Shown here piece after piece: positions 9,399-60,329 of a stretch of 64,000 bases of DNA. Made by a program: the position numbers and the translations under genes. The stretch comes from Bacteroidia bacterium. GTDB taxonomy: Bacteria; Bacteroidota; Bacteroidia; SpSt-205. The stretch covers positions 149,425-213,424 of the forward strand of contig JANXCX010000024.1 of the NCBI GenBank assembly GCA_025059535.1, in the 5' to 3' direction. Within the stretch, counting starts at the first letter, position 1. Each line of letters opens with the position of its first letter. A model generated the notes under the pieces. That model worked only from the letters and a program-made list of their open reading frames with translations. It searched no databases and was not told the DNA's origin.

Positions 9399-12300
9399 AT
9401 GCCAAGCCTTTTGTGGCTGAGTGGCAGCCTATGGCTGCAGCTTAGCGGCACGTACTGGATCAATGGCACTTCGCAGAGCGCGGCGCGCTCTTTTGCTACT
9501 TTGCAGGAAGCCCTGGATACCTTGGCCCATGTAGGGGCTCAAGGCACCGTATGGCTGCGAATCGTCTATCCTTATGACCCTACGCATGAGCCATCTACAA
9601 TCCGTGTAAAGGCCTACGCCTGTCAAAGCTGTAGCGTAGTGGTGGCGGTAGATACGCCAATAACTATAGCAAAAAGGCCTCGCGCAGGATGGCAGGAGGG
9701 TCAGTATGTGCTGCGGATTCAGGGTGGGGTTCAGCGCTTTACGCTGAATGGCCGCGGCCGACTCACGCTTAAGAGCCTTACCGATACCACCGAAATAACG
9801 GGCGTAGTCGGGATTGTGCCGCGCTCAGGGCCAGTAAGCCATATACGCCTAGATAGCTGCCGCCTAGAAGGCCATTCGCGCCAGGGCACGCAGCTGGCCT
9901 TTTACATAGGCGATAGTACTAGCGTTACTTTAGTTCCTGTATGGACGCAAGTAAGTCACATAACCCTACACGCTTGCACTTTACAGGCGGCGCGTTATCT
10001 GGCTGCAGCAGTGGCGCCCTGGTGGGGATATATCAGCCACCTCCGAGTAGAGAATTGCGTTTTAGGTTATCCCACTACTCAATGGTCCGAAGCCGCCTAT
10101 GCCTGGGGCAGTGCGCCACGAGCCGCAGCTTTCTATGGCCGATGGATTCAGCACCTTACCCTTACTGGCTGCCTTATTCAAGGCGCCTGGGAAACTCAGC
10201 ATAGCGTACAAGGCGTGCACTTAGAGTTCTGCCATACCGTAGCGCTGCGCGCCAACCGCATTCGAAATCTACGTAGTTTCTCTACCGAAGGCCACGGGGC
10301 CGTAGGCATACGGCTACTTGCCTACGTTCAGAGCGGACCTACCTCGCACCTCATGGAAAATAACTTTATCGGTAACCTCATAGGTAGTGCCGATGAAACG
10401 CTCCCCGGCTCTAGTGACTACCTTGTGGCGGGAGTCGTTTTAGAAGCGAATGCCCCTACTACGCTGCCCCATTTCAGCCTGCGGCACAATACCATACACC
10501 TCTATGGTCAAGCGGACGCTAACGCCCCTTGGGCCAAAGATGGGTTTAGCGCAGGCCTCGTCATAGGTAAAAATCTGCTCGGCGGTGTGGAAATCTCGGG
10601 TAATCTTATCCAGAACACTTTACGCTTGCGCAGCCTTCAGCCATTGGAGGCTAAAGAAACCTGTGGATTAGCCTTCTGGGAGCCAAGTACTGCTATCGCC
10701 TGGAGCTCCATGAACCTTCGGCACAACTTCTACTACATCCGAGGAGAAAGGCTAGAGCGGAGTTATATTGCTCGGGTAGGTTGGGGCGACAATAAGCGCG
10801 TATTTGGCACGTTAGCAGCATGGCAGGCTTTCTCGGGCTTAGAGAGCGGCTCGCAGGAAGGTGTAAGCTACCCCGCCCCCTTTGTCCATCCCGACGAACC
10901 TATATTAGAGGCAGGACAGCCTTGGGAGGGGATAAATGCGGGCCCTGTGCCAGTCGTAGTAAATACAGACCTCTATGGCACCTTGCGCCCGCAAGGCAGC
11001 GGTCCCGATCCGGGGGCGGCGCCCGACATAGGAGCTTATGAGTTAGATGGTACGCCCTTTCCCTGCCATCCTCCAGCTACCCAGGCCCTTAGCGCTTCGG
11101 CGGTGGAGGGATGGGTAAGTGAGACTCTAGCTATCCATTGCGCTAATCCCCCGGCCTTATCAGGTCGGCTTAGCCTTCTTTGGAGCCTTGATGGCGGCAC
11201 TACCTGGCATGCGCGGACCCTGCGTCCGACGGATTTTCCTTTACCTTTTCCTCTTCCCGCCCCTGCCCAGCTCCCTGGGTTAGTTGAGCTACGGCTTGTG
11301 GCGGCGCCCTTGCCAGGCTGCCCAGGCAACCCAGACACCTCGCTACCCCTTACCATCTTAGTGCGCGACCGCCCAGGTAACCGTCCAAGTAACGCCATCC
11401 CCCTCCAGCTTACCGCTGTAGCCCCGGGACTGTGGGAAGCCACTCATACGGACTCTCTTCTTGGACTTGGCCTCACAGATGAGTTTAGCCAACTGCCCGC
11501 AAGCCGTAGCCGCGATCTTTTCTTCACTTTTACCCTCCCTGACTGTTTGGACTCATTGGAGATAGACCTCTGCGATGAAGCTACAGACTTTGATACGCGC
11601 CTTCATCTCCTAAGTGATCTGGACACAGTTAGCGATCGCGATCAGGGCCATCGCTCTGACTGCAGGGGTTATCAAGGCCGTGGTGGCCTCACCTCGCGGG
11701 TGATCGTACAAGCCGCTGATAATGTTCAAAGCCCATCCGATGAGAACTTTAGTCAGCCGCAGCGCGGCACTATGCCTCTGACCCCTAATCAGCGCTTTTA
11801 TTTAGCAGTAGAGGGGGAAGAAGCCTTAGAGGTAGGGCGCTTTCGGCTGCGCCTGCGCGGGTATAACCTTCCACCTCAACCGCCTAATTTAGGCCCCGAC
11901 CGGGAAGTCTGTCTCGGTGGGCAGGGCATACGCCTTTCAGGTTTTGCCCCTGGCGCCAGCTATTACGAATGGTTCATAAATGACGAGCGTTTAAATGGCG
12001 TGCAGGACTCCTTTATTGTTTTTTCCGGACTGCCAGGCCAATATGAAGTGGTAGTGGTGGCTCATTGGGTTCCCCTTCAGGCTTGCGATGCCCCTGCCTC
12101 CGCCCGCGATACGCTAAACCTTCAACTCCTCCCTGCGCTTCAAGCCACCCTACGCTATGAGAATCGCCGATTCAATAACGGGGATACTCTTCACCTTCCT
12201 TTTGGCCTTCATACTTTATATGGTGAGACGCCAGCAGCGGACCCCCTATATACTTGGCGGCTGTATGACCGAAGGGGTACCCTTTTAGAGGTGCGCCGCG

Positions 12301-12671
12301 GACCTTCCTATACGCGGGCATGGGAAGTTTCAGGCATTTTTATGTTGCAGCTTACTACCGAAGCGGGTGGATGCCGGGAGGAGGATACGCTCTATTTAGA
12401 GGTGAGCGCTGCGGCTAGTCTTTCTGACTTAGGGTCGCCGGTGCCCGCTTTATGGCCTAATCCAAGTAAAGGTACAGTTTGGCTCTACCTTCCTACTCCA
12501 GGCCCCGCTTTTTACCGCCTATTCAATTCGGCTGGCCAATGCCTAAAAGAAGCCTTCTTAGAAGGTGGTACGATAGAATCCCTTACCTTGCCTTTTGCGT
12601 CTGGGTACTACTGGCTTCAGATTTCCACTGCCCAGGCTACATTTAGCCTACCGGTTCTGATTGTGGATTAG
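9399..12671 (+). CDS. large secreted beta-helix protein with T9SS type A sorting domain
   Basis: 1090 residues. A short signal sequence (MPSLLWLSGSLWLQLSG) is followed by ~500 residues of parallel right-handed beta-helix character (repeated ISHLRVENC, HLTLTGCLIQG, FSLRHNTIHL, VEISGNLIQN coils). Residues ~560-830 hold an Ig-like segment and a region resembling bacterial pre-peptidase C-terminal domains (SRDLFFTFTLPDC, DFDTRLHLL). A PKD-like domain with GASYYEWFINDE follows, and the end is a type IX sorting domain (PALWPNPSKGTVWLYL ... GYYWLQIST). It should cross the outer membrane by T9SS and remain surface-bound or be released. The beta-helix suggests polysaccharide binding or cleavage, but I see no catalytic signature. 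Confidence 0.85.
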   Translation: MPSLLWLSGSLWLQLSGTYWINGTSQSAARSFATLQEALDTLAHVGAQGTVWLRIVYPYDPTHEPSTIRVKAYACQSCSVVVAVDTPITIAKRPRAGWQEGQYVLRIQGGVQRFTLNGRGRLTLKSLTDTTEITGVVGIVPRSGPVSHIRLDSCRLEGHSRQGTQLAFYIGDSTSVTLVPVWTQVSHITLHACTLQAARYLAAAVAPWWGYISHLRVENCVLGYPTTQWSEAAYAWGSAPRAAAFYGRWIQHLTLTGCLIQGAWETQHSVQGVHLEFCHTVALRANRIRNLRSFSTEGHGAVGIRLLAYVQSGPTSHLMENNFIGNLIGSADETLPGSSDYLVAGVVLEANAPTTLPHFSLRHNTIHLYGQADANAPWAKDGFSAGLVIGKNLLGGVEISGNLIQNTLRLRSLQPLEAKETCGLAFWEPSTAIAWSSMNLRHNFYYIRGERLERSYIARVGWGDNKRVFGTLAAWQAFSGLESGSQEGVSYPAPFVHPDEPILEAGQPWEGINAGPVPVVVNTDLYGTLRPQGSGPDPGAAPDIGAYELDGTPFPCHPPATQALSASAVEGWVSETLAIHCANPPALSGRLSLLWSLDGGTTWHARTLRPTDFPLPFPLPAPAQLPGLVELRLVAAPLPGCPGNPDTSLPLTILVRDRPGNRPSNAIPLQLTAVAPGLWEATHTDSLLGLGLTDEFSQLPASRSRDLFFTFTLPDCLDSLEIDLCDEATDFDTRLHLLSDLDTVSDRDQGHRSDCRGYQGRGGLTSRVIVQAADNVQSPSDENFSQPQRGTMPLTPNQRFYLAVEGEEALEVGRFRLRLRGYNLPPQPPNLGPDREVCLGGQGIRLSGFAPGASYYEWFINDERLNGVQDSFIVFSGLPGQYEVVVVAHWVPLQACDAPASARDTLNLQLLPALQATLRYENRRFNNGDTLHLPFGLHTLYGETPAADPLYTWRLYDRRGTLLEVRRGPSYTRAWEVSGIFMLQLTTEAGGCREEDTLYLEVSAAASLSDLGSPVPALWPNPSKGTVWLYLPTPGPAFYRLFNSAGQCLKEAFLEGGTIESLTLPFASGYYWLQISTAQATFSLPVLIVD

Positions 12672-18177: not shown

Positions 18178-21100
18178 CTATAGCGTGATAACCCACCGCA
18201 GGAAGGTGCGCTCCCCGTTACTGAGATGCACCTCCACGGTATAAACGCCCCCGCTTAGAGCTTCTAAGTACCAGCGGTGTTTTTCCTCTATACCTTCCCA
18301 GACCAGCTTGCCGTAGGTGTCCCAAATCCGCACGCGCTGGATAGGCAGGTCAGCCTCCAGCCAGGCCCCACCGCGGCTCGGATTAGGGTGGAGGGTCACC
18401 CTTATACCTGCCGAAAGCCCAGGAAGGGAATTCGGGGGAGGCGGCACATCCTCACACTCAATCCGGGCCTCCCAACCAAATAGACTATCCGCCGCATTTG
18501 CACGGAAGGCAAATGTAAGAACCCTACCTGTACTAGTAATTGCAGGAGGCAGGGTAGAGCCATGGTAAGCCCCTATCTGACGGGCGGAGGTACCTTCGCC
18601 ATCATACGCCCAGAGCGTATCGCCGCTTCCAAGCGCAAAGGCTGAGAAAGTAACCTTCAGCCGCTTACCCGACGGCGCTCGGAAGATAGCCATACTTGTA
18701 TCCCTACCCTGATAGAGGTCAACTGGACCACCTCCGTCATAGAAAGTAGCGCCATTACCGCAGCAGTTTTCCGCCGCTAAGTCCACATCCAGCGTATCCC
18801 TATAAGGCATCAGATAGGTACAAGCTGGATAGCCTATGCAGCGCAGCCGAGCCGCCCATCCCGCGTCGGACGTATTGTCCGACGAGCGAAACTCAAAGGT
18901 AAGATACCGGCCAGAGCTCTGGATCACAGGCGGCAGAGTCGTCCCAGAGTACTGTCCTATTAGATTCGCCGTGCGTCCAAATCCATCAAATACCCGTAGA
19001 ATATCCTGATTAGCCTCGGTGGCAAATTGAGAAAAGGTGGCCTCTATTCTTTCGCCATAAGGAGCTTGGAAGATGATTAGCTTGTTTTGATTATCACCAT
19101 AATTTCTATTAGGCCCCCCGCTATCGTAGAAGTTAGCGCCGCCGCAACAATCCTCCTGCGTTAGGTCTATCACGGCACTATCTGCCTGAAGCACATAGCT
19201 GCAGGGGGCGATACACGAAATCGTAGCTTCCCACCCTGCACCCGTAATGCTTCCATCGGAGCGGAAACGGAAGGTGAGCGCATTACCCGTGCTTGTTAGC
19301 TCTACTGGCATAGAGGGCGTACCACGCAGGGTGATAAGCCGAGGGGAGGATAGTTCATCCGCACCGTCATATACTACGAGCGAGTCGCAGCAGTTTTCGG
19401 AGGCGAAGCTAGTGAAGACCACTCTCAGGCGATGGCGCGGCGGTGCAAGGAAAGTCAGGCCGCGTGACTCGCTATTGCTATAATTCGCCGTAGGCCCGCC
19501 GCTATCGTAGAAGCGCACCTCATCGCAGCAGGCTTCTTCCCCTAAATCAATTGTCCCACTGCGCATAGTGTAAATGCAAGGCACAAAACAGGAGATGGAG
19601 GCGCCCCATCCTGCCGCATTACCTGAGCCATTGGAAACAAACCGGAACGTAATATACCGCCCGCGTGCCCGAATAGGTTGGGCCGGAGGGGTATTACCAC
19701 TCAGACGGGCTAAAATAGGGCTATTCGCGTCCTGACCATCATGCACAAATAGAGTATCCCCGTCTAGAAGTTCTAGCTGGAAGAAACTAAAGGCGGCGCG
19801 CTGGCCTTCAGGCGCCATAAAGGTGATAGTGCGATTCTCGTTATCCCCATAGTTCCCGCCGAGATTTCCACTATCGTAGAAGACGGCGTCGCCACAGCAG
19901 TTATTTTGCGCTAGGTCTATCACCTGAGGAGAGGCAGGCATAGTGAAAGTACAAGCAGCGGGTGGAGCCACGCAGCTTAGGCGCGCCGCCCAGCCACTTC
20001 TCACAACGCTTCCATCTGAGGTGAATCGGATAGTCAGAGCACGGCCGGTACTGGTTATTGGAGCGGGTACGGTACTTCCCGAAAAGCGCCCTAACTGCGT
20101 CCCACCTGTACCTACTCCATCATACACTTCCAGCCAATCATAGTTAGTCTCCGTATTGAAGGCCGTAAATTCCAAGCGCAGCCGCTGCCCTAAAGGCGCT
20201 AAGAAAGTGGTTGTTTGGTTTTCGTTATTAGAGTAGTTACCTGCAGGTCCGCCGCTATCGTAGAAGTTTAGACCATCACAGCAGTTCTCTCCGCCCAGGT
20301 CTACCGTAAGGCCATTAGTCATGTTGTATATGCAGGGGACGAAGCAGCTTACCTCGGCTATCCATCCAGCAGCGGTGCCGGCACTATTAGAGACGAAACG
20401 GAAGGTGATACTTTGCCCGCTACTGCGCAGGACCGAAGGAAGAGTAGTACCGCTCAACCGGGCAACAATTGGTGCGGCCGCATCTGGGCCATCATGAACG
20501 TACAGCGTATCTCCCGACGCTACCTGGAAGGCGCCAAAATCTACACGTACCCGCTGTCCCGAAGGCGCCGTGAAGGTAATCTGGCGGTCCTCATTATCCC
20601 CATAACCCCCCGCCTCACTCCCGCTATCGTAGAATACGCCACCTCCACAGCAGCCGGCCGTACTTAGGTCTACATTCTGCGTAGCGGCGTTTAGAACGAA
20701 AGTGCAACCCGGCGACATAGGTACGCAACGCACCTGAGCAGCCCAGCCCGAGGCGGCAGTAGAGAAATTGGATTGGAAGCGCACGGTGAGGGCACGTCCG
20801 CTACTGGTCAGGGTAGGCGGCAGCGTATTACCCGAGAAGCGCCCTAAACGGGTCCCGCTCGTGCCCACTCCCTCAAACACCTCCAGCGTATCTACATTAG
20901 GCTCGGTATTGAAGCTGGAGAAGCTCAGCTCTACGCGCTGCCCTAAGGGAGCTACAAATGTTACGGTAGCATTTTGGCCATTACCGTAGTCGCCCGAGGG
21001 GCCACCGCTATCAAAGAAGTTGAGTCCGCCGCAGCAGTCCCGCTGGGCAATCTCCACCGTCGTGGTACCGGTAGCTGGCATGACAAAAGTGCAGCGCTCA

Positions 21101-24100
21101 TAGCAGCCCACCCGCGCCCCCCATCCAGCAGCGGTACCTGAAGCATTAGAGACAAATCGGAAGGTAAGCTGCTGCCTATTTCCCCGAATCAGAGGCGGTA
21201 AGTCCGTACCCGAATAAGCCCCCAGGCGCGGCGCATTTAGATCAGCCCCATCATACACATATAGCGTATCCCCTTCAGCTAAATTGAAGGCAAAGAAGCG
21301 CACTTCTACTCCCTGGCCAACAGGAGCTTCAAAGGTAATAGTCTCATCTACGCTATTCCCATAATCCGCCCCTAAGCCGCCATCATCATAGAAGTGCGCT
21401 AGACCGCAGCAGCCTAAAGTCCCTAGCTCTACCCGGCGCGTGCTAAGATTGAAGATGCAGCCGGGAGTGGGGGTAGCACAACTAACCGAAGCGGCCCAGC
21501 CTAGCCTGTTAACACTACCATCGCTTTGGAAGCGAAAAGTGAGGACGTTCGTAGAACTCAAAAGAGTAGGAGGCAGAGTAGTACCCGTGAAACGGCCGAG
21601 GCGCGGCGCATTCACATCAGCCCCATCAAAGGCCTCTAGCACATCATAATTATTTTCCGTCGTGAAGGCGGAGAATTCTACCCGCACATGCTGACCTACC
21701 GGCGCCGTGAAGGTAACTACCCCATTTTCACCATTGGTGTAGTTACCGGGCTGATCAGAGGTCGTAGCACTACCCCCAGAGCCACCACTATCAAAGAAAT
21801 TGAGTCCTCCACAGCAGTCACGTTCACCTATAGCTACGGTAGCGCTGCCGGTGCGCGGCATGGTGTAGATGCAGCGCTCATAGCACGCTATGCGCGCCGC
21901 CCAGCCCGCCGCATTGCCAGAACCGTTGGAAATAAAGCGGAAAGTAAGCCGCTGCCTACTTCCGCGAATTACGGGCGGTAGGTTAGTACCCGAGTAAGCT
22001 CCGATCAGAGGGGCACTGAGATCAGCCCCATCATACACATATAGCGTATCCCCAGCTAGCAAGCTAAAAGCAATAAAACGCACTTCTACCCCTTGTCCCA
22101 CCGGGGCGATAAAGGTTAGGATATCATCTATATTGTCCCCATAATTTCCTACCGAGCCGCCATCATCGTAAAATACCCCTACCCCACAACAGGAATTCGC
22201 CGCCACATCTACCTGAGTCGTCTGCATAGTGAAGATACAGGCGGGTGGAGGCGTAACGCAGGAAACCACCGCCTCCCATCCAGCGGCTACGACTGTGGCA
22301 TTCGAGCGGAAACGAAATGTTAGGGCTTCAGTACTACTTGTAAGCACGGGGGGAAGCGCAGCACCTGAATAAACCCCCAGCCGTGTAGCGTTAGCATCCG
22401 GCCCATCGAAAACTTCCAGCGTATCTTGATTGAGCTGGGTATTGAAAGAATTGAATTGCACGCGTACAAATTCACCCGGTGGAGCCAAAAAGGTCAAGGT
22501 AAGGTTTTCATTATTAGCATAGTTTCCGTTGGGGCCACCCGTATCGTAGAAGCGTATCCCACCACAGCCCTCTTGGGCGGCTAAATCAAATGTGCCGTTC
22601 TGCATGAGAACTTGGCGAGGGTAGCAGCGCACTACGGCAAACCAGCCCGCCCTTTCCGCAGCGGCATCCGAGACAAACTGAAATGTAAGGGCGCCCCGGC
22701 TGCTACGCAGGAGCGGCGGAAGGGTTGAGCCTGTATAGGTACCTATCAGGGGGTCTGAAGTGGAGGCGCCATCATACACCCGTAATTCATCTCCCGCTCC
22801 AAGGTCAAAGGTATTGAAGCGCACCTCTACTCCTTGGCCCGAAGGCGCGCGAAAGGTTAGAACATGGCTAGCGTTGGCGCTATAGTCGCCGCTCAGCCCG
22901 CCATCATCGTAGAAATGAGCTAAGCCGCAGCAGCCCGTCGCGCCTAAATCTACCGTCTGAGTACTCATAGGAAAGATACAGGCTGAGGCAGGACTTACGC
23001 AGGAAAGGGCAGCTTCCCAGCCCAACCGATTAACGGAGCCATCAGACCGAAAGCGAAAAGTAAGTGCATTAGAAGTACTGATGAGCGTCGGCGGCAGCGC
23101 TGTACCCATAAACCGCCCTAAGCGGGGCGCACTCGTATTGGGGCCATCAAATACCTCAAGACTATCGTAGTTATTCTCCGTCGTAAAGGCCGAGAACACT
23201 ACCCGCACATGTTGGCCTAATGGCGCAGTAAAGGTCATAACGGCATTTTCGTTATTCATGTAATTACCCGACGCACCGCTGGTAGTAGCGCTTCCGCCAG
23301 GTCCGCCACTATCGTAGAAATTCGCCCCGCCGCAGCAGACCTCAGCGGCTAAATCCACAGTAACGCCATTTTGCATGGAATATTGGCAGGGTACAAAGCA
23401 TTGAAGTAGAGCGATCCATCCTCCTGCCGTACCAGCTCCATCCGAGACAAAGCGAAAAGTAAGGTGGGAGCCCGTACTCCGGATAGTTTGAGGGGTATTC
23501 CCGCTAAGGCGCGCAATCACGGGTGCCGCCGTATTAGGCCCATCATGGACATAAAGCGTGTCCCCCGTTAAGAGGTCCATTACCCCAAATTCAGCCCTTA
23601 GGCGCTGACCCGCTGGAGCGGCAAAGGTTATGGTGCGGTCCTCTCCATCCCCATACCCACTGCCATCCCCACCACTATCGTAGAAGAGAGCTGAACCACA
23701 GCAGCTATTAGCGCTTAGGTCTATATCTTGATGGGTAGATAGTAGGGTGAAAGTACAGGCCGCTGCAGGAGACACGCAGCTTACCCGTGCTACCCAGCCG
23801 CTCCTTACTTCACTAACATCTGAGGTAAAGCGCACCGTCAGCGCAGGGCCACTGCTTGTAAGAGGCCCAGGCACCGTAGTGCCTGAAAACCGACCTAACA
23901 GGGGAGACCCGGTATTCGGGCCATCATATACCTCCAGCCAGTCAAAGCCCGCCTCCGTATTGAAAGCGCTAAACTCCAGGCGAATCCGCTGCCCAAAGGA
24001 TGCGCGAAATGTCATGGTGAAGTTCTGGTTATTGCCATAATTCCCCGAGGGACCGCCCGAATCGTAAAAGTCAGCCCCACTGCAGCAGCCGCTTGCCACC

Positions 24101-24201
24101 AGATCTACAGTGGTATTACTGATATTGTAGCTGCATTGCGCATATACCCCATACCCTACAGCTAAGCAAGCCCCCAGTAGGCTGCGGATAAAGGTTGGCA
24201 T
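18178..24201 (-). CDS. giant secreted protein of 15 tandem CUB domains with T9SS type A sorting domain
   Basis: 2007 residues from ATG 24201. A start at 24228 would include the promoter box as codons, so the second Met (MPTFIRSLLGACLAVGYG) is used; a signal peptide ends near VYAQ. Fifteen CUB-like units of ~115-130 residues follow, each with Cys or CC followed by FYDSGG/FYDDGG, a Y(G/S)xN(E/Q)N turn, LEVYDG or LYVYDG, a G.(F/Y)(S/T)G loop, L(T/I)FRF(V/R)S and a final GW.A.(V/I)SC. Units alternate between two flavours. In CUB domains such acidic residues (YDG, D) bind Ca2+, so Ca2+-dependent carbohydrate or protein binding is likely. The tail has LHPNPSRGGAW and a final beta-strand domain (VYTVEVHLSNG), the T9SS signal. 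Confidence 0.9.
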   Translation of the reverse strand: MPTFIRSLLGACLAVGYGVYAQCSYNISNTTVDLVASGCCSGADFYDSGGPSGNYGNNQNFTMTFRASFGQRIRLEFSAFNTEAGFDWLEVYDGPNTGSPLLGRFSGTTVPGPLTSSGPALTVRFTSDVSEVRSGWVARVSCVSPAAACTFTLLSTHQDIDLSANSCCGSALFYDSGGDGSGYGDGEDRTITFAAPAGQRLRAEFGVMDLLTGDTLYVHDGPNTAAPVIARLSGNTPQTIRSTGSHLTFRFVSDGAGTAGGWIALLQCFVPCQYSMQNGVTVDLAAEVCCGGANFYDSGGPGGSATTSGASGNYMNNENAVMTFTAPLGQHVRVVFSAFTTENNYDSLEVFDGPNTSAPRLGRFMGTALPPTLISTSNALTFRFRSDGSVNRLGWEAALSCVSPASACIFPMSTQTVDLGATGCCGLAHFYDDGGLSGDYSANASHVLTFRAPSGQGVEVRFNTFDLGAGDELRVYDGASTSDPLIGTYTGSTLPPLLRSSRGALTFQFVSDAAAERAGWFAVVRCYPRQVLMQNGTFDLAAQEGCGGIRFYDTGGPNGNYANNENLTLTFLAPPGEFVRVQFNSFNTQLNQDTLEVFDGPDANATRLGVYSGAALPPVLTSSTEALTFRFRSNATVVAAGWEAVVSCVTPPPACIFTMQTTQVDVAANSCCGVGVFYDDGGSVGNYGDNIDDILTFIAPVGQGVEVRFIAFSLLAGDTLYVYDGADLSAPLIGAYSGTNLPPVIRGSRQRLTFRFISNGSGNAAGWAARIACYERCIYTMPRTGSATVAIGERDCCGGLNFFDSGGSGGSATTSDQPGNYTNGENGVVTFTAPVGQHVRVEFSAFTTENNYDVLEAFDGADVNAPRLGRFTGTTLPPTLLSSTNVLTFRFQSDGSVNRLGWAASVSCATPTPGCIFNLSTRRVELGTLGCCGLAHFYDDGGLGADYGNSVDETITFEAPVGQGVEVRFFAFNLAEGDTLYVYDGADLNAPRLGAYSGTDLPPLIRGNRQQLTFRFVSNASGTAAGWGARVGCYERCTFVMPATGTTTVEIAQRDCCGGLNFFDSGGPSGDYGNGQNATVTFVAPLGQRVELSFSSFNTEPNVDTLEVFEGVGTSGTRLGRFSGNTLPPTLTSSGRALTVRFQSNFSTAASGWAAQVRCVPMSPGCTFVLNAATQNVDLSTAGCCGGGVFYDSGSEAGGYGDNEDRQITFTAPSGQRVRVDFGAFQVASGDTLYVHDGPDAAAPIVARLSGTTLPSVLRSSGQSITFRFVSNSAGTAAGWIAEVSCFVPCIYNMTNGLTVDLGGENCCDGLNFYDSGGPAGNYSNNENQTTTFLAPLGQRLRLEFTAFNTETNYDWLEVYDGVGTGGTQLGRFSGSTVPAPITSTGRALTIRFTSDGSVVRSGWAARLSCVAPPAACTFTMPASPQVIDLAQNNCCGDAVFYDSGNLGGNYGDNENRTITFMAPEGQRAAFSFFQLELLDGDTLFVHDGQDANSPILARLSGNTPPAQPIRARGRYITFRFVSNGSGNAAGWGASISCFVPCIYTMRSGTIDLGEEACCDEVRFYDSGGPTANYSNSESRGLTFLAPPRHRLRVVFTSFASENCCDSLVVYDGADELSSPRLITLRGTPSMPVELTSTGNALTFRFRSDGSITGAGWEATISCIAPCSYVLQADSAVIDLTQEDCCGGANFYDSGGPNRNYGDNQNKLIIFQAPYGERIEATFSQFATEANQDILRVFDGFGRTANLIGQYSGTTLPPVIQSSGRYLTFEFRSSDNTSDAGWAARLRCIGYPACTYLMPYRDTLDVDLAAENCCGNGATFYDGGGPVDLYQGRDTSMAIFRAPSGKRLKVTFSAFALGSGDTLWAYDGEGTSARQIGAYHGSTLPPAITSTGRVLTFAFRANAADSLFGWEARIECEDVPPPPNSLPGLSAGIRVTLHPNPSRGGAWLEADLPIQRVRIWDTYGKLVWEGIEEKHRWYLEALSGGVYTVEVHLSNGERTFLRWVITL

Positions 24202-24205
24202 GCGG

Positions 24206-24213
24206 CAAAGATA
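24206..24213 (-). promoter_or_regulatory. -7 promoter box for the CUB gene
   Basis: TATCTTTG on minus, 4 nt before ATG 24201; it fixes the start codon. Confidence 0.68.
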
Positions 24214-24273
24214 AGCATCCTGAGCCATTCCTATTCTGGCCAGCCAAAATTACCTTAGCTAAGTTGGGATTTG

Positions 24274-33965: not shown

Positions 33966-34909
33966 GGAGAGGGTAAGGCACGGTGGTAGCGCTGCTCGGC
34001 CAGCCAGCGCTCCGCATCTAAAGCGGCCATGCAGCCCGTAGCCGCAGCGGTAATCGCCTGCCGATAAACTGGATCCTGTACATCCCCCGCCGCAAATACC
34101 CCTTCCAAGTTAGTATGAGTGCTACCGGGGCGCGTGCGTATGTAGCCATTTTCGGTAAGTTCCAGCTGGCCGGCGAAAATAGCCGTATTTGGCTGATGGC
34201 CGATAGCCACAAAAAGCGCCCGTACGGGGAGAATAGTCTCTTCACCCGTTTGGAGGTGGCGCACTTTTACGCCCTCCACCCGGTCCGTCCCTAAAATATC
34301 TACCACTACTGTATGCCAGTGGATAAAGATATTAGAGGTACTACGCACGCGATCCTGCATGATTTTGGAGGCGCGCATTTTATCGCGCCGCACCAGCATA
34401 TGGACGGTGCTACAAAGCTTGGAGAGGTAGAGAGCCTCCTCACATGCGCTATCACCCCCACCTACTACCGCCGCAGGCTGACCTCGGAAAAAGTAGCCAT
34501 CGCATACGGCACAGGCACTTACGCCGGCTCCATAGAGGCGCTGCTCCGCCTCTAACCCAAGCCATCTGGGCGAAGAGCCCGTGGCAATAATTACGGCTTC
34601 CGCTTCCACGATTTCGCCCGAGCTAAGCGTAAGGCGCTTGGGCATAGTACGCAGCTCCGCCTGCTCCACTACATCATAAATAATGGGTGTGCCGAAGCGT
34701 ACGGCCTGCTGGCGGAAATCCTCCATCATTTGGCCTCCTAGCACCCCTTGGGGATAGCCGGGGAAATTTTCCACTTCACTTGTTCTAGTAAGCTGCCCCC
34801 CTGGCTCTGGTCCTGCAATCAGGACAAGCTTAAGTCCTGCCCGCGCCGCATAGATAGCCGCCGTATAACCCGCTGGACCCGAGCCTAATATGGCTACTTC
34901 ATACACCAT
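33962..34909 (-). CDS. trxB: thioredoxin reductase
   Basis: Reduces thioredoxin with NADPH. 315 residues: FAD motif ILGSGPAGYTAAIYAARAG, the NADPH domain GGGDSACEEALYLSKL, redox-active C133/C136 (CAVC) and the C-terminal FAD site VFAAGDVQDPVYRQAITAA. The start overlaps the end of the dsbD-like gene by 11 bp, so it is translated after it, matching the pathway direction thioredoxin to DsbD. The 3' end overlaps nuoC by 4 bp. Confidence 0.97.
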   Translation of the reverse strand: MVYEVAILGSGPAGYTAAIYAARAGLKLVLIAGPEPGGQLTRTSEVENFPGYPQGVLGGQMMEDFRQQAVRFGTPIIYDVVEQAELRTMPKRLTLSSGEIVEAEAVIIATGSSPRWLGLEAEQRLYGAGVSACAVCDGYFFRGQPAAVVGGGDSACEEALYLSKLCSTVHMLVRRDKMRASKIMQDRVRSTSNIFIHWHTVVVDILGTDRVEGVKVRHLQTGEETILPVRALFVAIGHQPNTAIFAGQLELTENGYIRTRPGSTHTNLEGVFAAGDVQDPVYRQAITAAATGCMAALDAERWLAEQRYHRALPSP

Positions 34910-36908
34910 ATCGCTTCTGGTAATTTGAAAGGCCCTCTTGAAGAAAGCTCAGAAACTGCCCCACGTCCAGCGTGAAACCGAGGGGCGCCGTGAGTGGCAC
35001 TAAGGTAGAGTCGGTAATTACATAGTAAGGCTGAGCCTGGGTGTTATAACGGGTTTTTTGAAGGTACAGCCACTTATCGCCTAAGGTTCGTAGTTTTTTG
35101 CCCTCTGGTAGGGTAATTACCGTATCCAGTGGGGTGAGGTCATCTACAAAAAGCGATACCAGTACAACATCCTCCCGAAGGTGCTTAGCCACGTGGGGAT
35201 GCGACCATACATTACTTTCTACCTGACGGCAGTTAGTGCAAGTATGGCCAGTAAAGTCTAAAAGCAAAGGCTTGCGTACCTGACTAGCATAGGCTAAGGC
35301 CTCCTCCAGGTCATAGAAAGCGCACAAATCAACGGGGGTGTATTTGCGCAGTTTGTCGGCGTACTTACGGTTAGGTGGATAAAAGCAGGTGGGCGTAGCG
35401 AGGCGCTCGGCCCCCAGCACACGCACGCCCATTTCCTCATGGACGGGCGGCAGAAGGCCCGAAAAAAGCTTGAGGGGTGCCCCCCAAAGTCCTGTAAATA
35501 GATAAAGCGCCAGGCTAAAGCTACCCATACTCAGTAGCAGACGCCCCACGCCGATGGTAGAAGGGGCAGCCCCCTTGAGCGGGATCTTACCTAAAAGATA
35601 GAGCGAAAGAAAGAGAAAGAGCGTAATCCACAGGACTAGGTAGACCTCGCGCGGCAGGAGGCCGAGGTGCCACACTAGGTCTGCATTGCTAAGAAACTTA
35701 AGCGCGAGGGCCAATTCTAAAAAGCCCAGGGTTACTTTGAAGGTTTCCATCCAGTCCCCTGCGCGCGGGAGACGATGAAGCAGCTGAGGCATCCCCGCAA
35801 GCAGGCCAAAAGGCAAAGCAAAGGCTAGCCCAAAGCCCGTCATGCCCACCATAGGCTCCCAGAGCTTTCCCCCTACCATGTCTATCATGAGGGTGCCAAT
35901 CAGAGGGCCTATGCAGGAGAAGCTCACGAGCACTAACGTCAAAGCCATGAAAAATACCCCTGCTAAGCTATGGGGATTGGCTCGGCGGCTTGTAGCCGTA
36001 CTCCAGGTAGCCGGCAGCACAATATCGTAAAGCCCTAGAAAAGACAGGCCGAAAAGGAGCAGAATGAAAAAGAAAAGGAGATTGAGCCAGGGATTAGTAG
36101 CTAGGTTATAAGCGGCGCTGGCCCCAAAGACTAATGTAAGTAGAAGGCCTATTAGCCAGAAGATGAGCAGGACCGAAAAGGCATACCACAGGGCCAGGAA
36201 GGGAAAGCCGCGCCGCCCCTCGGTGGCCTTGGTAAAGTAGCTGAGCGTAAGCGGAATCATAGGGAAAGTGCAAGGCGTAAGGATAGCCGCTAGGCCAAAG
36301 AAAAAAGCCTTGAGAAATACCCACCAGAGCGACTCAAAGGGGGCCACCGAAGGAGGGGGAGGCGGCGTAGGCGAAGCTATACGGGGCGAAAGGCTGGTCG
36401 AGTCCGCTTTAGGCTTAGGCAGAGTATCCGCCCGAGGCGAAAGGGGCCCCGAAGAAACCTGGGGCTTGGCGGCAAGCCCCCCGCTAAGCTTGAAATGAAA
36501 GTCCTTAGTTTCCATATAGCACTGCTGGGCGTCGCAGTACTGGTAGCGCAGGTAGCCCCCCACCTCAGCCGGCAGAGCTTCTATCCGAAAGTATTGGAGG
36601 AATTCCGCTTTGCCCTCGTAGTAATAGACTTCCGTCTCAAATATTTCGTCGTATTTGGATTGGAGGTGGCCTTGTTCCTTTAGCCCGCCTAAGGGCCGCA
36701 AACCCACCAGCTTCTCCAGCGTAAGAGTAGTAGGCAGGTTGGCTTCCTTAGCAGGGGCCCGACTAGAGAAAAGGTGATAGGGACCAGGAATAGTAGCCTG
36801 AAAGCGTAAGGCCAGCGTATCTCCTATGGTGGGTTTAGGCGGTTTATCTAAAACGATATTCCAGCCTATCAGGGTTTGGGCCCAGAAAAGCCCCCAGCCC
36901 GTGAGCAT
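34899..36908 (-). CDS. dsbD: DsbD-like thiol:disulfide transporter
   Basis: Carries reducing power from cytoplasmic thioredoxin to the periplasm. 669 residues: signal (MLTGWGLFWAQ), an N-terminal DsbD-alpha-like domain (~20-150), an Ala/Pro-rich linker, eight or so membrane helices (~205-480) with the conserved cysteine motifs LTPCTFPMIPL and FSCIGPLIGTL, then a thioredoxin-like domain with CTNC in FTGHTCTNCRQVE. The periplasmic Trx domain has CxxC, as required. Downstream trxB completes the electron path. The -7 box TAAATTTG contains the TAA stop of the upstream DUF4442 gene. Confidence 0.93.
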   Translation of the reverse strand: MLTGWGLFWAQTLIGWNIVLDKPPKPTIGDTLALRFQATIPGPYHLFSSRAPAKEANLPTTLTLEKLVGLRPLGGLKEQGHLQSKYDEIFETEVYYYEGKAEFLQYFRIEALPAEVGGYLRYQYCDAQQCYMETKDFHFKLSGGLAAKPQVSSGPLSPRADTLPKPKADSTSLSPRIASPTPPPPPSVAPFESLWWVFLKAFFFGLAAILTPCTFPMIPLTLSYFTKATEGRRGFPFLALWYAFSVLLIFWLIGLLLTLVFGASAAYNLATNPWLNLLFFFILLLFGLSFLGLYDIVLPATWSTATSRRANPHSLAGVFFMALTLVLVSFSCIGPLIGTLMIDMVGGKLWEPMVGMTGFGLAFALPFGLLAGMPQLLHRLPRAGDWMETFKVTLGFLELALALKFLSNADLVWHLGLLPREVYLVLWITLFLFLSLYLLGKIPLKGAAPSTIGVGRLLLSMGSFSLALYLFTGLWGAPLKLFSGLLPPVHEEMGVRVLGAERLATPTCFYPPNRKYADKLRKYTPVDLCAFYDLEEALAYASQVRKPLLLDFTGHTCTNCRQVESNVWSHPHVAKHLREDVVLVSLFVDDLTPLDTVITLPEGKKLRTLGDKWLYLQKTRYNTQAQPYYVITDSTLVPLTAPLGFTLDVGQFLSFLQEGLSNYQKRYGV

Positions 36909-48740: not shown

Positions 48741-49213
48741 AGAAAAGCGGCGGCTAAAGCAATGGCGATGGCATCGGTGGCGTGGTTGGAAGAAGGCGGC
48801 GGGAGGGTGCCTTTTAGGTAATAAGACAGCATAGCGGCTACTTGGGTTTTATCGGCGTGGGCTCGGCCGGTGATGGCCTTCTTGATGCGGGCTGGTGCAA
48901 GGCGAATGGGCGGTGGATAGCCGCGCAAGCACAAAAACCCCCAGATAGCCCCTTGAAAAGCCCCCAGTATTAGTGCGGAGCGGGGGTTGTGCCCCAAAAA
49001 AGGCGCCTCCATCGCCGGCTGCACCGCCGACGAGAACGAAGCCAGAAACGCTTCTAAGCCAGCATATAGGGTGTGCAGTCGCTCATCTAGGGCGCGGGAC
49101 TGAGTAAGGCTAAGCGTCTCCGCTTTCAAAAGCCGAAAGGGCGCATGCGACCCCTCCACCAGCGCTAAGCCCACCGCCTGCGCCCCTGGGTCTATCCCCA
49201 GCCAAAGGCTCAC
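48692..49213 (-). CDS. ruvC: crossover junction endodeoxyribonuclease RuvC
   Basis: Resolves Holliday junctions. 173 residues from GTG 49213, which overlaps the stop of the upstream phosphatase (GTGA). GTGs at 49216 and 49231 are alternatives. Catalytic acidic residues: D8 in LGIDPGAQAVG, E in AMEAPFLG, and D in SNHATDAIAIAL; the basic KKAITGRAHADKTQV segment is typical. ruvA and ruvB are not in the window. The 49-bp 3' overlap with the receptor gene is antisense. Confidence 0.95.
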   Translation of the reverse strand: MSLWLGIDPGAQAVGLALVEGSHAPFRLLKAETLSLTQSRALDERLHTLYAGLEAFLASFSSAVQPAMEAPFLGHNPRSALILGAFQGAIWGFLCLRGYPPPIRLAPARIKKAITGRAHADKTQVAAMLSYYLKGTLPPPSSNHATDAIAIALAAAFLQNSPITRRFTSRAER

Positions 49214-52200
49214 CACACCCGAACCCCCCACATCGTCACATCATCCACCTGCTCCCTATCCTCCCCATAATCCTTCCACTCCTTCCAGCGCTGATTGAAA
49301 AGGGCGCGCAGGCGCGGCATAGAAGGCTCATGAAGGTGTTCTAAGATAAACTCCTTGAGCTGCTTAGTTCCAAAGCGCTTTCCTGCCGGTCCGCCCCACT
49401 GATCCACTACACCATCCGTAAAGAGGAAGAAGCTATCGCCCTGCTCCAGTTGAATTTCATGCTCGGTGAAGAAGCGCTCTTCTTCCAGCTGCTCGCCGCC
49501 AATAGCCTTTTTATCGGGCTTAATTTCCCGCAGCTCACCGCCGCTGAGATAGTAGATTGGAAGGTTAGCCCCCGCATAAATGAGCTTGTAGGTTTTAGGG
49601 AAGTAGCGCACGAGCGCAATATCCATGCCATCGCGGGAGGTTATGCCTTCGGTTTCTATGTCCTGCCGCAGAATTTGCCGTACCCCGATATGGAGGTCAT
49701 GGAGGATTTGTGCGGGTGAGAAGATGCGGCTTTTGTTGATGATATGGTCTAGTAGGATACTTCCGATGAGGGTCATGAAGGCCCCAGGCACGCCATGTCC
49801 CGTCCCATCAGCTACGACGATAAAGTAAGAATCTTCTACCTCACTGAACCAGTAGAAATCGCCGCCTACGCCCGTCCGATCGCGCGGGCGCCAAATGATA
49901 AAGAAGTTATCACGGCCTAAGTATTTTTCCAGTATGGCCTCGGAAGGTAGGATATTTTTCTGCATACGCTTGGCGTAGCGGATGCTTTCGCGGATGTCCC
50001 GCATAGCTTCTTCTAGCTCATGCTTCTGAACCTCCAGCTGGGCATAGGCTTCTTGGAGGCGCCGCGCGTAGGCTTGCTGCTCTTCTTCTATTACCGAAGC
50101 CGCTGAGGCGGCCAAAGCCCGGAGGAAATTCACCTCATCCAGCCGCCACTCCCGCTTAGTATAGCGGTGCTCTACGCTAATCAGTCCGACTGTTTTGGCC
50201 CCTACCCGAATAATACCGTCCATAACACTGGCTACATTATTGGGCTTGAAGAGGGGCAGGGCCAGCTCACGCGTACGCAAATCGGATAGCGCATCCACCA
50301 CGGCTATTACCTGCTCACGCTCCAGGCTCTGGAAGTAAAGCGGATAAAGCGATCGGCTAACTACGGAGCCTACGGCATGGGAATGCGGCTCCTTTTCGGC
50401 TACGGCCACGCAGCGGGCTTGGTCATTTTCCTCATATAGCCACAGGCTGACCCGATAGGCTTTAAGGGTAGCCAGCGCTACCTCCGCTATCACCTGAAAG
50501 GCTTTGGGTACATCGCCCTCCTTAAGAGCTGGATGCGAGGCCAAAAGCGAAAGGGCATTCTGCTGCTCCGTAAGACGAAATTCCTGCTCCTTCTGCTCAG
50601 TAATGTCAAAGAGAATGTTGATAGTTTTGAGCAGCTTTTTCTCAGGACGGCTTCGGTCTATAAGGGGGGTGCTGGACATAATAGCCCAATAGGAGTGACC
50701 CAAGGTGCCCCGCAGTTCTACTTCGGATTTCCAGATTTGCCCGGCCTGCATGCTGCGCCAGTGGCCTTGGAGGACAGCTATAGGCTGCCTTTCGGAAAAA
50801 AGGCTTCCATAATGCTGGCCTACTATGCTATTAGTGCTATGGGCCAGAGCTTCTAGCAGACTACCGCTAGCATAGGTGATGTAACCTTCGCCATCGGTTT
50901 CAAAGAGCCAAGCGGCATTATTGAGCGCTTCCAATTGAGCCGAGAGCTGGAGCTGAGAGGCCCGATAGTTTTCATTACTGCGGCGCAGCTCCTCCGTATT
51001 TTCCCGTAGGAGCTGCTCCTGCTGCCGCGCCAGAAGCAAAGCGCTTTGAATCTCCTGCTCTTGCTGCTTTTGCAGCGTGATATCAAAACCCACTAAGATA
51101 TACTTGTAAATCTCCCCATCAGACTGGCACACGGGACTAATCGTTTGCTGAAGCCATATGGAGTCGTTCCAACGGGTGGTATAGGAGACCACCTCGGACC
51201 AACTTTCACCCTGGCGGAGCTTATCAAACATTTTGCGCAAGAGGGGCTCTTCTTCGGGGCGGCGCAAGACTTGATAGGGCTGGCCGAGAATATCCTCACT
51301 TTTATAGCCGAAAAGACGAAGGAATGACTCGTTTACGTATATAATTCGGCCTTCAGGATTCATCTCAGCAACAAGGGCGGCATTATTTAGCGCTGTGATT
51401 TGCCCGCGCAGTTCAGCCTGGGTGCGGCGCATCTCCTCAGCCGAAGCTTCTAGCTCTTCTATATTTTGGCGCAGCTCCTCTTCCAGCGCCTGCGCATGTT
51501 CTAGGTAGCTGATAAGCTGCTGCTCTACAAGCTTTCTATGGCCTTGCTGGAGGAGGAGCGAGGCCACGCGCGCCAGTAGGGCGGGATATTCTGCGTCGCG
51601 CAGGGGCTTATCGGAGAGCCGCTCCACAAAGAAGACCCCCGCAATCTCCTCATCTATAAGGAGCGGGAACATCCACAGCTGCTGAAACTGACGCTGCGTG
51701 AGATAAGTTCGCAAGGGCGTAGTTTCGGGCTGATAGGGCCCAGGCGACTGCCCTACCTGCGCATATACCCACCTTGCTACCTCCGCTGGCAGATCCACGC
51801 TATTTGTGTGTGCCAGAAGGGTAGGGTCGTAGGCCTCTAAGCAGTGAAGCGAACCATTTTGATCCCCAAATACCCAAAAGCTATAGCGCGCTTCGGGATC
51901 AAGGGTAGCCGCTACTTCGGCTATGGCCGCAAGGCCCTCCAGTACGTCCCCCTTTTGTAAGGCGGGCATCTTCAAAAGCGTCTGAAGGCTTTGGCGCTGC
52001 CGCAGAAGCCGTTCAATTTCCTGATTGTACTCGGCTTGGAGCGTGCTATACTGCTGCTTCAGACGGAGGTAGGCATTTTCCACGGCTTGATACTCCTTTT
52101 GAAGGGCGGCGAGCTTGGCTTCGGCTTCCTCTAAGCGCCGACGCAGCTCGGGCAGAGGGAGCAGGGAAAAGAGCCCGCGCCGCGTTTTATCTTGCCGATA

Positions 52201-53391
52201 TACAAGGAGCGCATAGGCATAGTCGCGGCCATCAATCTGTATGATGCCGCGCAGGGACTGGGACTCCATTTGATGCTGGCCCCATTCTAGGCCCACTTCG
52301 GTGAGATTTGTCCACGCCGCGGCGCCCGGAAGCTCTAAGAAGAGATCGTTTTTGCTTGTAAAGCGGCCTTGGGCATCTATTTCGGCGATGGGCAGGAGGT
52401 TTTGGAGCGCGCCTATTTGAAGGTGGAGTTCGGTCATCTTGAGGGCCCATTCCTGCTGGAGCGCCTCTAACCGCTGAGTCTCCTTTTGGAGCTCGGCGGA
52501 CAGCGTCTGAAGCTGCGCCGTTTGCTGAGCCAGTCGGTCGGCCACCTCCGAAAAAGGCGGCGCTGCGCTCCTTAGGGCAGAAGCCAGGGATTCCGAAAGG
52601 GGTCTAGAGGCGGCAAGAGCTTCTAAACCTTCTAAGAGCTGCTGCCAACGCAGAAGCAGGTCATTGTAGCTTTGGCCGATAGGCTGCAAAGGCTTAGGTA
52701 GAGCGGGCAGCGGCCGCTGACGGGCAATAGCCTCCAGGGCCTGCTTGAACCTATGACTCTCCTCACGTCCGACGATTAGAAAAGCTAACAGGGCCACAGT
52801 GGCGAAGCCGCCTACCAGAAGCCAGCCTACCGTATTTAGATGCTCCTGCTTCTGGCGAATCCCCTCCAGCAGGCTGAGGGAACGCTGGGCCAAGTAATCC
52901 CGAAAGCGCCCAATTTCATTCTCCACCGCCGCCAGAAGGGCTGGGGCTTCAGCGAGGTATTGCTCCAAAATGGGGTGATAGTCTTCGCGCCCTCTACTTT
53001 GTTCCAGCGCGCGACGCCAGCCTTGATGCCGCCGCTCTAAAAGAAGTACCCGCTCAATAAGCTCGCGCAGTAGAGGAAGCGGCTGGTTTTGCTGGCGCGC
53101 CGCAATTTCCAGAGCTTTGAGGGCCGGTCGCACTTCAGCCTGCCGAAGAAGAGTAGGAGGAATGGACTGGGCACTGGCATATTCCAGAAAACTAGCCCGC
53201 AGCCGCGCCTCTTGAAGCCAAATCGCTGTCTCTACCCGAAGTAGGGCCTTCTCTATTTCTCGTAGCTGGCGCAGCTGGCTAAGGGCTTCCTCGCTCAAGC
53301 TGCGCTCCCAGAATACCCACAGGAGTCCACTTCCCCCTATCAGAAGGGCAAAAATCAGACCCCACAGGCGGAGTTGAAGGGTAGCAGTCAT
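49210..53391 (-). CDS. PAS/GAF sensor protein with SpoIIE-type PP2C phosphatase (two-helix membrane sensor)
   Basis: 1393 residues. TM1 ~8-28, a helical periplasmic segment ~30-186, TM2 ~187-208. Cytoplasmic: coiled coil, a PAS-like fold (~320-400), coiled coil, GAF (~465-630), PAS (~660-770), PAS (~820-930), GAF (~950-1100), a short coiled coil, and PP2C ~1138-1392. PP2C metal residues are present: GVGGDFYW, VADGTGHGVPGAFM, SRDGMDIAL and QVDDVT. It should dephosphorylate a SiaC- or anti-sigma-antagonist-like protein in response to signals. It is co-translated with ruvC; its partner is not adjacent. Confidence 0.9.
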   Translation of the reverse strand: MTATLQLRLWGLIFALLIGGSGLLWVFWERSLSEEALSQLRQLREIEKALLRVETAIWLQEARLRASFLEYASAQSIPPTLLRQAEVRPALKALEIAARQQNQPLPLLRELIERVLLLERRHQGWRRALEQSRGREDYHPILEQYLAEAPALLAAVENEIGRFRDYLAQRSLSLLEGIRQKQEHLNTVGWLLVGGFATVALLAFLIVGREESHRFKQALEAIARQRPLPALPKPLQPIGQSYNDLLLRWQQLLEGLEALAASRPLSESLASALRSAAPPFSEVADRLAQQTAQLQTLSAELQKETQRLEALQQEWALKMTELHLQIGALQNLLPIAEIDAQGRFTSKNDLFLELPGAAAWTNLTEVGLEWGQHQMESQSLRGIIQIDGRDYAYALLVYRQDKTRRGLFSLLPLPELRRRLEEAEAKLAALQKEYQAVENAYLRLKQQYSTLQAEYNQEIERLLRQRQSLQTLLKMPALQKGDVLEGLAAIAEVAATLDPEARYSFWVFGDQNGSLHCLEAYDPTLLAHTNSVDLPAEVARWVYAQVGQSPGPYQPETTPLRTYLTQRQFQQLWMFPLLIDEEIAGVFFVERLSDKPLRDAEYPALLARVASLLLQQGHRKLVEQQLISYLEHAQALEEELRQNIEELEASAEEMRRTQAELRGQITALNNAALVAEMNPEGRIIYVNESFLRLFGYKSEDILGQPYQVLRRPEEEPLLRKMFDKLRQGESWSEVVSYTTRWNDSIWLQQTISPVCQSDGEIYKYILVGFDITLQKQQEQEIQSALLLARQQEQLLRENTEELRRSNENYRASQLQLSAQLEALNNAAWLFETDGEGYITYASGSLLEALAHSTNSIVGQHYGSLFSERQPIAVLQGHWRSMQAGQIWKSEVELRGTLGHSYWAIMSSTPLIDRSRPEKKLLKTINILFDITEQKEQEFRLTEQQNALSLLASHPALKEGDVPKAFQVIAEVALATLKAYRVSLWLYEENDQARCVAVAEKEPHSHAVGSVVSRSLYPLYFQSLEREQVIAVVDALSDLRTRELALPLFKPNNVASVMDGIIRVGAKTVGLISVEHRYTKREWRLDEVNFLRALAASAASVIEEEQQAYARRLQEAYAQLEVQKHELEEAMRDIRESIRYAKRMQKNILPSEAILEKYLGRDNFFIIWRPRDRTGVGGDFYWFSEVEDSYFIVVADGTGHGVPGAFMTLIGSILLDHIINKSRIFSPAQILHDLHIGVRQILRQDIETEGITSRDGMDIALVRYFPKTYKLIYAGANLPIYYLSGGELREIKPDKKAIGGEQLEEERFFTEHEIQLEQGDSFFLFTDGVVDQWGGPAGKRFGTKQLKEFILEHLHEPSMPRLRALFNQRWKEWKDYGEDREQVDDVTMWGVRVW

Positions 53392-59849: not shown

Positions 59850-60329
59850 ATGCCTGCGGCAATGTGGCTGGGCCTATGGTGGCTTCAGCTTCGCGTAACT
59901 ATAGTTGGCTTCAATCCGGGCGATTTCCTTTCGGTGGATCACACCTGTGATGGGGCTAACCTTCCCCTCACGGTGCAGTGGAAAGGCGCCCCACCCCAGA
60001 CCGAAGCCTACGTTGTGCGGATGTATGACCCCGATGCCCCCGGCGATACCTTCACCCACTGGTTAGTGTATAATCTCACAGGCGAAGAGCTAAAGCCAAG
60101 CCTCCCCGGGCTTTTAGAAGGGTATAATGACTTTGGCCAACTTGGGTATGGCGGTCCCTGCCCGCCACCACGAGATCAAGCCCATCGCTACGTAGTAGAA
60201 GTTTATGCGCTTCGGCGGCCCCTTCGGATTACCCCACCCGTTACCTGGAAGCGGGTCCGCTCCCTCCTAGAAGATAAAGTCTTAGCCCGCGGCGAGACTT
60301 TCGTGCGGTACAAACGCACGCGCCGCTGA
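59850..60329 (+). CDS. PEBP family protein (YbhB/YbcL type)
   Basis: 159 residues with a short N-terminal hydrophobic stretch (MPAAMWLGLWWLQLRVTIVG), so export is possible. Phosphatidylethanolamine-binding signature: VRMYDPDAPGDTFTHWLVYN, then GYGGPCPPPRDQAHRYVVEVYAL. It has the YbhB-type short length. Its stop shares one base with the start of the next gene (TGATG), so it is translated with the sensor phosphatase; the role is unknown. Confidence 0.9.
   Translation: MPAAMWLGLWWLQLRVTIVGFNPGDFLSVDHTCDGANLPLTVQWKGAPPQTEAYVVRMYDPDAPGDTFTHWLVYNLTGEELKPSLPGLLEGYNDFGQLGYGGPCPPPRDQAHRYVVEVYALRRPLRITPPVTWKRVRSLLEDKVLARGETFVRYKRTRR

Follow-up and report, generated by a model that had tools for sequence, protein, structure and literature searches.

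The window, the whole stretch of 64,000 nucleotides that was analysed, harbours on its minus strand an open reading frame (18178..24228) of 2016 amino acids as counted from the first ATG; the second ATG, at 24201, is the likely start, giving the 2007 residues reported in the initial annotation and placing a signal peptide at the N-terminus. The product carries fifteen tandem CUB domains of two flavours, here termed A and B, and a probable type IX secretion system (T9SS) sorting domain (Table 1). Upstream of the start at 24201, the Bacteroidota -7 box pattern TAnnTTTG is matched at 52 and 13 bases, which represents weak promoter evidence since the window holds 51 such matches. On the other side, the terminator-like hairpin stands between the CUB-array gene and a lipoyl-synthase-like and a BatA-like gene. 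The latter two are adjacent in the congeners G005 and G010 as well (91% and 41-43% identity), and as neither the CUB-array gene nor the genes upstream of it in the window found a match in the 14 kb taken from these two genomes, the site of the array is not common to them.

Table 1. Features of the CUB-array gene and its 3' flank (positions in the window).
Feature	Position	Strand	Remarks
signal peptide (MPTFIRSLLGACLAVGYGVYAQ)	24136..24201	-	read from the sequence; presumed cleavage site
CUB U01	23776..24135	-	flavour A, Tyr-Glu-Asp-Asp complete
CUB U02	23398..23757	-	flavour B, subtype B1, without Glu
CUB U03	22999..23388	-	flavour A, motif complete
CUB U04	22624..22980	-	flavour B, subtype B2, without Glu
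CUB U05	22258..22617	-	flavour A; Glu to Gln, Asp to Asn; C1 and first C of CC both gone
CUB U06	21883..22239	-	flavour B, B2, without Glu
CUB U07	21478..21873	-	flavour A, motif complete
CUB U08	21103..21459	-	flavour B, B2, without Glu
CUB U09	20725..21093	-	flavour A, last Asp to Asn
CUB U10	20344..20706	-	flavour B, B1, without Glu
CUB U11	19972..20334	-	flavour A, motif complete
CUB U12	19588..19953	-	flavour B, B1, without Glu at the aligned place
CUB U13	19213..19578	-	flavour A, motif complete
CUB U14	18838..19203	-	diverged, A-like, Glu present
CUB U15	18454..18822	-	diverged, B-like, without Glu
probable T9SS type A sorting domain	18181..18396	-	TIGR04183 22.0 bits, cut-off 23; five strands predicted
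terminator-like hairpin, after the stop codon	18143..18170	-	12 pairs, 10 of them G-C, then a T run

Elsewhere in the window lie a further T9SS cargo near the array, of 1090 residues and unknown function (9399-12671, plus strand; type A sorting domain at 30 bits, above the cut-off, and no Pfam domain), and two large proteins that combine PAS/GAF with SpoIIE-type phosphatase domains (49213-53391, minus strand, 1393 amino acids; 60329-63049, plus strand, 907 amino acids). A DsbD-like thiol:disulfide interchange protein containing a thioredoxin domain (34902-36908, minus strand) is recorded here in view of the many disulfides predicted for the array.

CUB domains and sorting domain

Comparison of the array protein with the Pfam CUB profile (PF00431) yielded 557 bits against a cut-off of 21.4 (E 1.3e-170), with 14 stretches passing on their own, while a six-frame scan of the genome returned 15 separate CUB matches in this frame, every unit being above the curated cut-off. 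The motif CC..F[YF]D likewise occurs in 15 copies at a spacing of 122-134 residues, and the fifteen CUB units running end to end of the initial annotation are thereby confirmed. That annotation had also proposed structure prediction as a check besides the profile search, and the two agree: an AlphaFold2 model of units 1-3, for which the input alignment comprised solely A-B-A stretches of the array gene itself, reached a mean pLDDT of 86.9 and adopted the CUB beta-sandwich fold (1.6 A and TM 0.85 to CUB1 of NRP2, neuropilin-2), and Foldseek placed cubilin first (E 7.9e-27), with single CUB domains at TM 0.81-0.85. With a pTM of 0.66, the packing between domains in this model is unreliable. Matches of the array protein to the Pfam vRNAP_dom and to an NCBIfam lipoprotein profile fell under their respective cut-offs and were set aside.

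The C-terminal sorting domain that had been proposed is probable. TIGR04183 aligns almost end to end with the final 72 residues (E 1.2e-4), at a score 1 bit under its cut-off, and PF18962 scored 20.1 bits against a cut-off of 27; the genome encodes the PorU sortase (927 bits, cut-off 420). The TIGR04183 match, the five strands predicted for this domain from a one-sequence model input, PorU and the 30 sorting-domain matches in the genome together indicate that the array protein is likely to be exported by type IX secretion. In a full-text search of the open-licence literature, no publication turned up that connects CUB domains to the type IX system.

Alternation, cysteines and calcium-site residues

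Pairwise identity within U1-13 amounts to 53.4% between odd units, 52.4% between even units and 42.4% between odd and even units, so that identity is higher by some 10 points when two units share their parity than when they do not (p 0.0003-0.002). Permutation gave p values for alternation of 0.0023 (U1-12, the lowest value attainable with the 462 possible splits), 0.0004 (U1-13) and 0.0003 (all 15 units). The alternating junction style that had been noted by eye was recovered as well, the distance from end Cys to the next start Cys being 6-7 residues from odd to even units and 4 from even to odd units. The unit phylogeny, also proposed at the outset, placed U1, 3, 5, 7, 9 and 11 together in a tree of 100 units, while the even units split into U2/10/12, which end in CF and cluster with units of the congener G006, and U4/6/8, which end in CY; one B subtype thus occupies the inner pairs (3-8) and the other the outer pairs (1-2 and 9-12). 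Because the tree groups the odd units and divides the even units into subtypes, the array seems to have expanded in blocks of two domains, and identities, permutation and tree all support the duplication of a two-domain unit that the initial annotation had put forward. The two-flavour alternation as first described requires correction in two respects, as it stops short of the C-terminus, where an A unit (U13) is followed by an A-like one (U14) and a B-like one (U15), and as the even units comprise two subtypes.

The units carry a start Cys (C1), a vicinal CC and an end Cys. C1 and CC were both present in 32 and both absent in 71 of 103 distinct unit starts from the array and related arrays, which are kin and not independent of one another; in no case was one found alone, and U5 has lost C1 together with the first C of CC. 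This joint presence or absence leads us to predict disulfides between C1 and the first C of CC (C1-C2) and between the second C of CC and the end Cys (C3-C4). The cysteines of the array units do not occupy the four canonical positions of animal CUBs, nor are the disulfide positions of animal CUBs used; membership of the CUB family does not require the cysteines. In the congener arrays L051, L054, L056 and L065 the C1/CC pattern occurs only in the first unit, among the unit starts readable by pattern, as if that unit were an N-terminal cap.

In Ca2+-binding animal CUBs the residues Tyr-Glu-Asp-Asp form the Ca2+ motif, and ligand is bound at multiple points with low affinity per domain (PMC10850435). 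The stretch preceding 'D.L.V.DG' in the array reads F..F.TE...D in A units and F..F.L..GD in B units, the B loop (even units 2-12) being one residue shorter and devoid of Glu at the aligned place, and phmmer aligned the Glu and Asp of U01 with the Glu and Asp of cubilin and neuropilin CUBs. Tyr is present in all units, and the full Tyr-Glu-Asp-Asp, with its last Asp supplied by a later 'SD', in U1, 3, 7, 11 and 13; the motif is partial in U9 (Asn for the last Asp), U5 (Gln and Asn) and U14 (no last Asp at the aligned place). Glu is thus found in 6/7 odd units (1-13) and in 0/6 even units (2-12) of the array, and in 24/26 odd and 0/21 even units across six arrays of two families (the array's own U1-13, L049, L051, L054, L058 and L059). 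Of the two flavours, only A appears, from its residues, to keep the Ca2+ motif, and both a Ca2+ dependence of the array and its role as an adhesin or polymer-binding protein are plausible. It is quite unlikely, in our estimation, that the alternation is functionless in itself and a mere trace of growth by two-domain duplication; units of the same flavour are each other's closest relatives, as pair duplication without selection predicts, but presence and absence of Glu still follow the alternation in the array and in related arrays despite duplications that must be old, given unit-to-unit identities of only 40-68%.

CUB arrays in related bacteria

CUB domains were detected in 240/396 sampled genomes of the same class and in 14/198 genomes of a separate phylum-wide sample, their occurrence therefore being patchy and dependent on sampling. 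The class survey, together with other arrays of 9-13 units, contradicts the earlier description of such arrays as unusual in bacteria, and rules out that CUB arrays are rare in bacteria. The relatives found under a name are a Saprospiraceae and a Bacteroidales MAG, which makes Bacteroidia the probable class. Among 23 arrays of at least 5 units, not all independent, 20 show an excess of same-parity over opposite-parity identity that ranges from 4 to 32 points, and many of these reach the lowest p value possible for their length; alternation was absent from L050, L061 and L062. In a quick tree a single clade of 29 units (support 99) unites the B units from other arrays, and the B units of the present array sit with its own A units outside that clade, as would fit an independent origin of B in this array; forcing all B units together was not rejected (p-AU 0.264). 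Flavour B may be an ancient subtype common to several families. The congener G006 contributes two CUB-array frames at contig ends, L049 and L050, which have a B subtype in common with the array gene and may be adjacent genes that a break between contigs has separated.

The flavours alternate in families f18, f35, f12, f29 and f4 too, yet the partner of B is there also without Glu, from which it follows that alternation is not solely about Ca2+. This bears on the main rival to the reading as a binding protein, namely a structural fibre, a stalk or surface-layer fibre serving length and stiffness only, in which A and B pack together as a unit and Ca2+, if bound, braces the rod. Such a fibre would account for alternation in arrays whose A partner is without Glu, and is in keeping with the tightly alternating junction lengths, the additional pair of cysteines that almost every unit carries and an array protein in which no other functional domain is recognisable. 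We nevertheless consider it unlikely, as five A units retain complete Ca2+ motifs and as relatives fuse single CUBs of the same type to enzymes, where a stalk role is improbable.

In relatives, such CUBs occur joined to GH18, M43 peptidase, C-type lectin and laminin-G-like domains; this company is as expected of binding modules, and together with the Ca2+ motif in A it argues for a binding protein. Binding could also serve nutrition, the protein, released or at the surface, gathering polymeric substrate for secreted hydrolases and not acting as an adhesin: apart from the array, the genome encodes just one CUB domain, which accompanies GH18 in a 1266-residue frame (L067 7239-11036, contig C13), and a congener possesses an M43 peptidase with three CUBs. 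The array gene, however, stands alone behind its terminator-like hairpin and not beside hydrolase genes, and such nutrient capture appears to us quite unlikely.

Proposed role and comparison with known systems

The best explanation, with an even chance of being correct, is a multivalent Ca2+-dependent surface adhesin or polymer-capture protein in which A units act as clamps and B units as spacers. Secreted as a rod or string in which fifteen CUB beta-sandwiches follow one another, the protein would cross the inner membrane by means of its signal peptide and the outer membrane through type IX secretion, after which the PorU sortase would probably anchor it to the cell surface. The A-B pair would be the building unit: the A units would present an acidic Ca2+-type pocket resembling that with which animal CUBs clamp a basic residue of the ligand, while the B units, lacking the pocket Glu, would be spacers or packing partners, braced by disulfides, and would define distances and orientations. 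Firm attachment to a protein or polymer, be it on another cell, on a host or on a particle, could then result from the sum of numerous Ca2+-dependent contacts, each of them weak, over the length of the rod. Counting against this explanation are the families in which alternation persists without Glu, the partial loss of the motif in units 5, 9 and 14, the sorting domain 1 bit under its cut-off and the unreliable packing of neighbouring domains.

In more general terms, we tentatively suggest, while regarding it as somewhat doubtful, that A/B-alternating CUB arrays constitute a distinct and widespread class of bacterial surface proteins, built from a conserved structural pair of one Ca2+-clamping and one Ca2+-blind CUB, clamps therefore recurring at every second domain and B being perhaps an ancient subtype. 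The result of interest is this general A/B layout, as bacterial CUB arrays with a regular two-type arrangement offer a simple system for testing adhesion by repeated Ca2+-dependent contacts, and a ready comparison is at hand between arrays with and arrays without the Ca2+ Glu in flavour A.

CUB domains are best known from animal proteins, where arrays of them are known as receptor modules. Cubilin, an animal endocytic receptor of which CUB5-8 have been solved (PDB 3kq4), has a long uninterrupted CUB run, as does the array, and several of its CUBs have Ca2+ sites that clamp a basic residue of the ligand; it is the best PDB match of the array by sequence as well as by fold. Cubilin is nevertheless built of canonical four-Cys CUBs, whereas the array is a probable T9SS cargo with another cysteine pattern and regular A/B flavours. 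The cbCUBs (MASP/C1s, TSG-6, PCPE-1 and neuropilin) have the same fold as the array (TM 0.85 and 0.81 to single domains) and Tyr-Glu-Asp-Asp in common with most of its A units, but the Glu-Asp loop of the array is shorter and bears no canonical disulfide, and its B units are without Glu. SprB is, like the array, a large repetitive type IX secretion cargo, and is a surface adhesin; its repeats are a different module, and a profile search found no SprB match in the array protein. Comparable in design are arrays of the same class, L058 (11 units), L060 (13), L079 (9), L082 (10) and L065 (7), which also alternate in flavour, L079 and L082 having T9SS sorting domains above the cut-off. Compared with these, the present array is the longest uninterrupted one among those examined, has the sorting domain as its sole other domain and carries C1/CC in 14/15 units, and the gene represents a long and clean example of a common bacterial A/B CUB-array design that is itself apparently undescribed.
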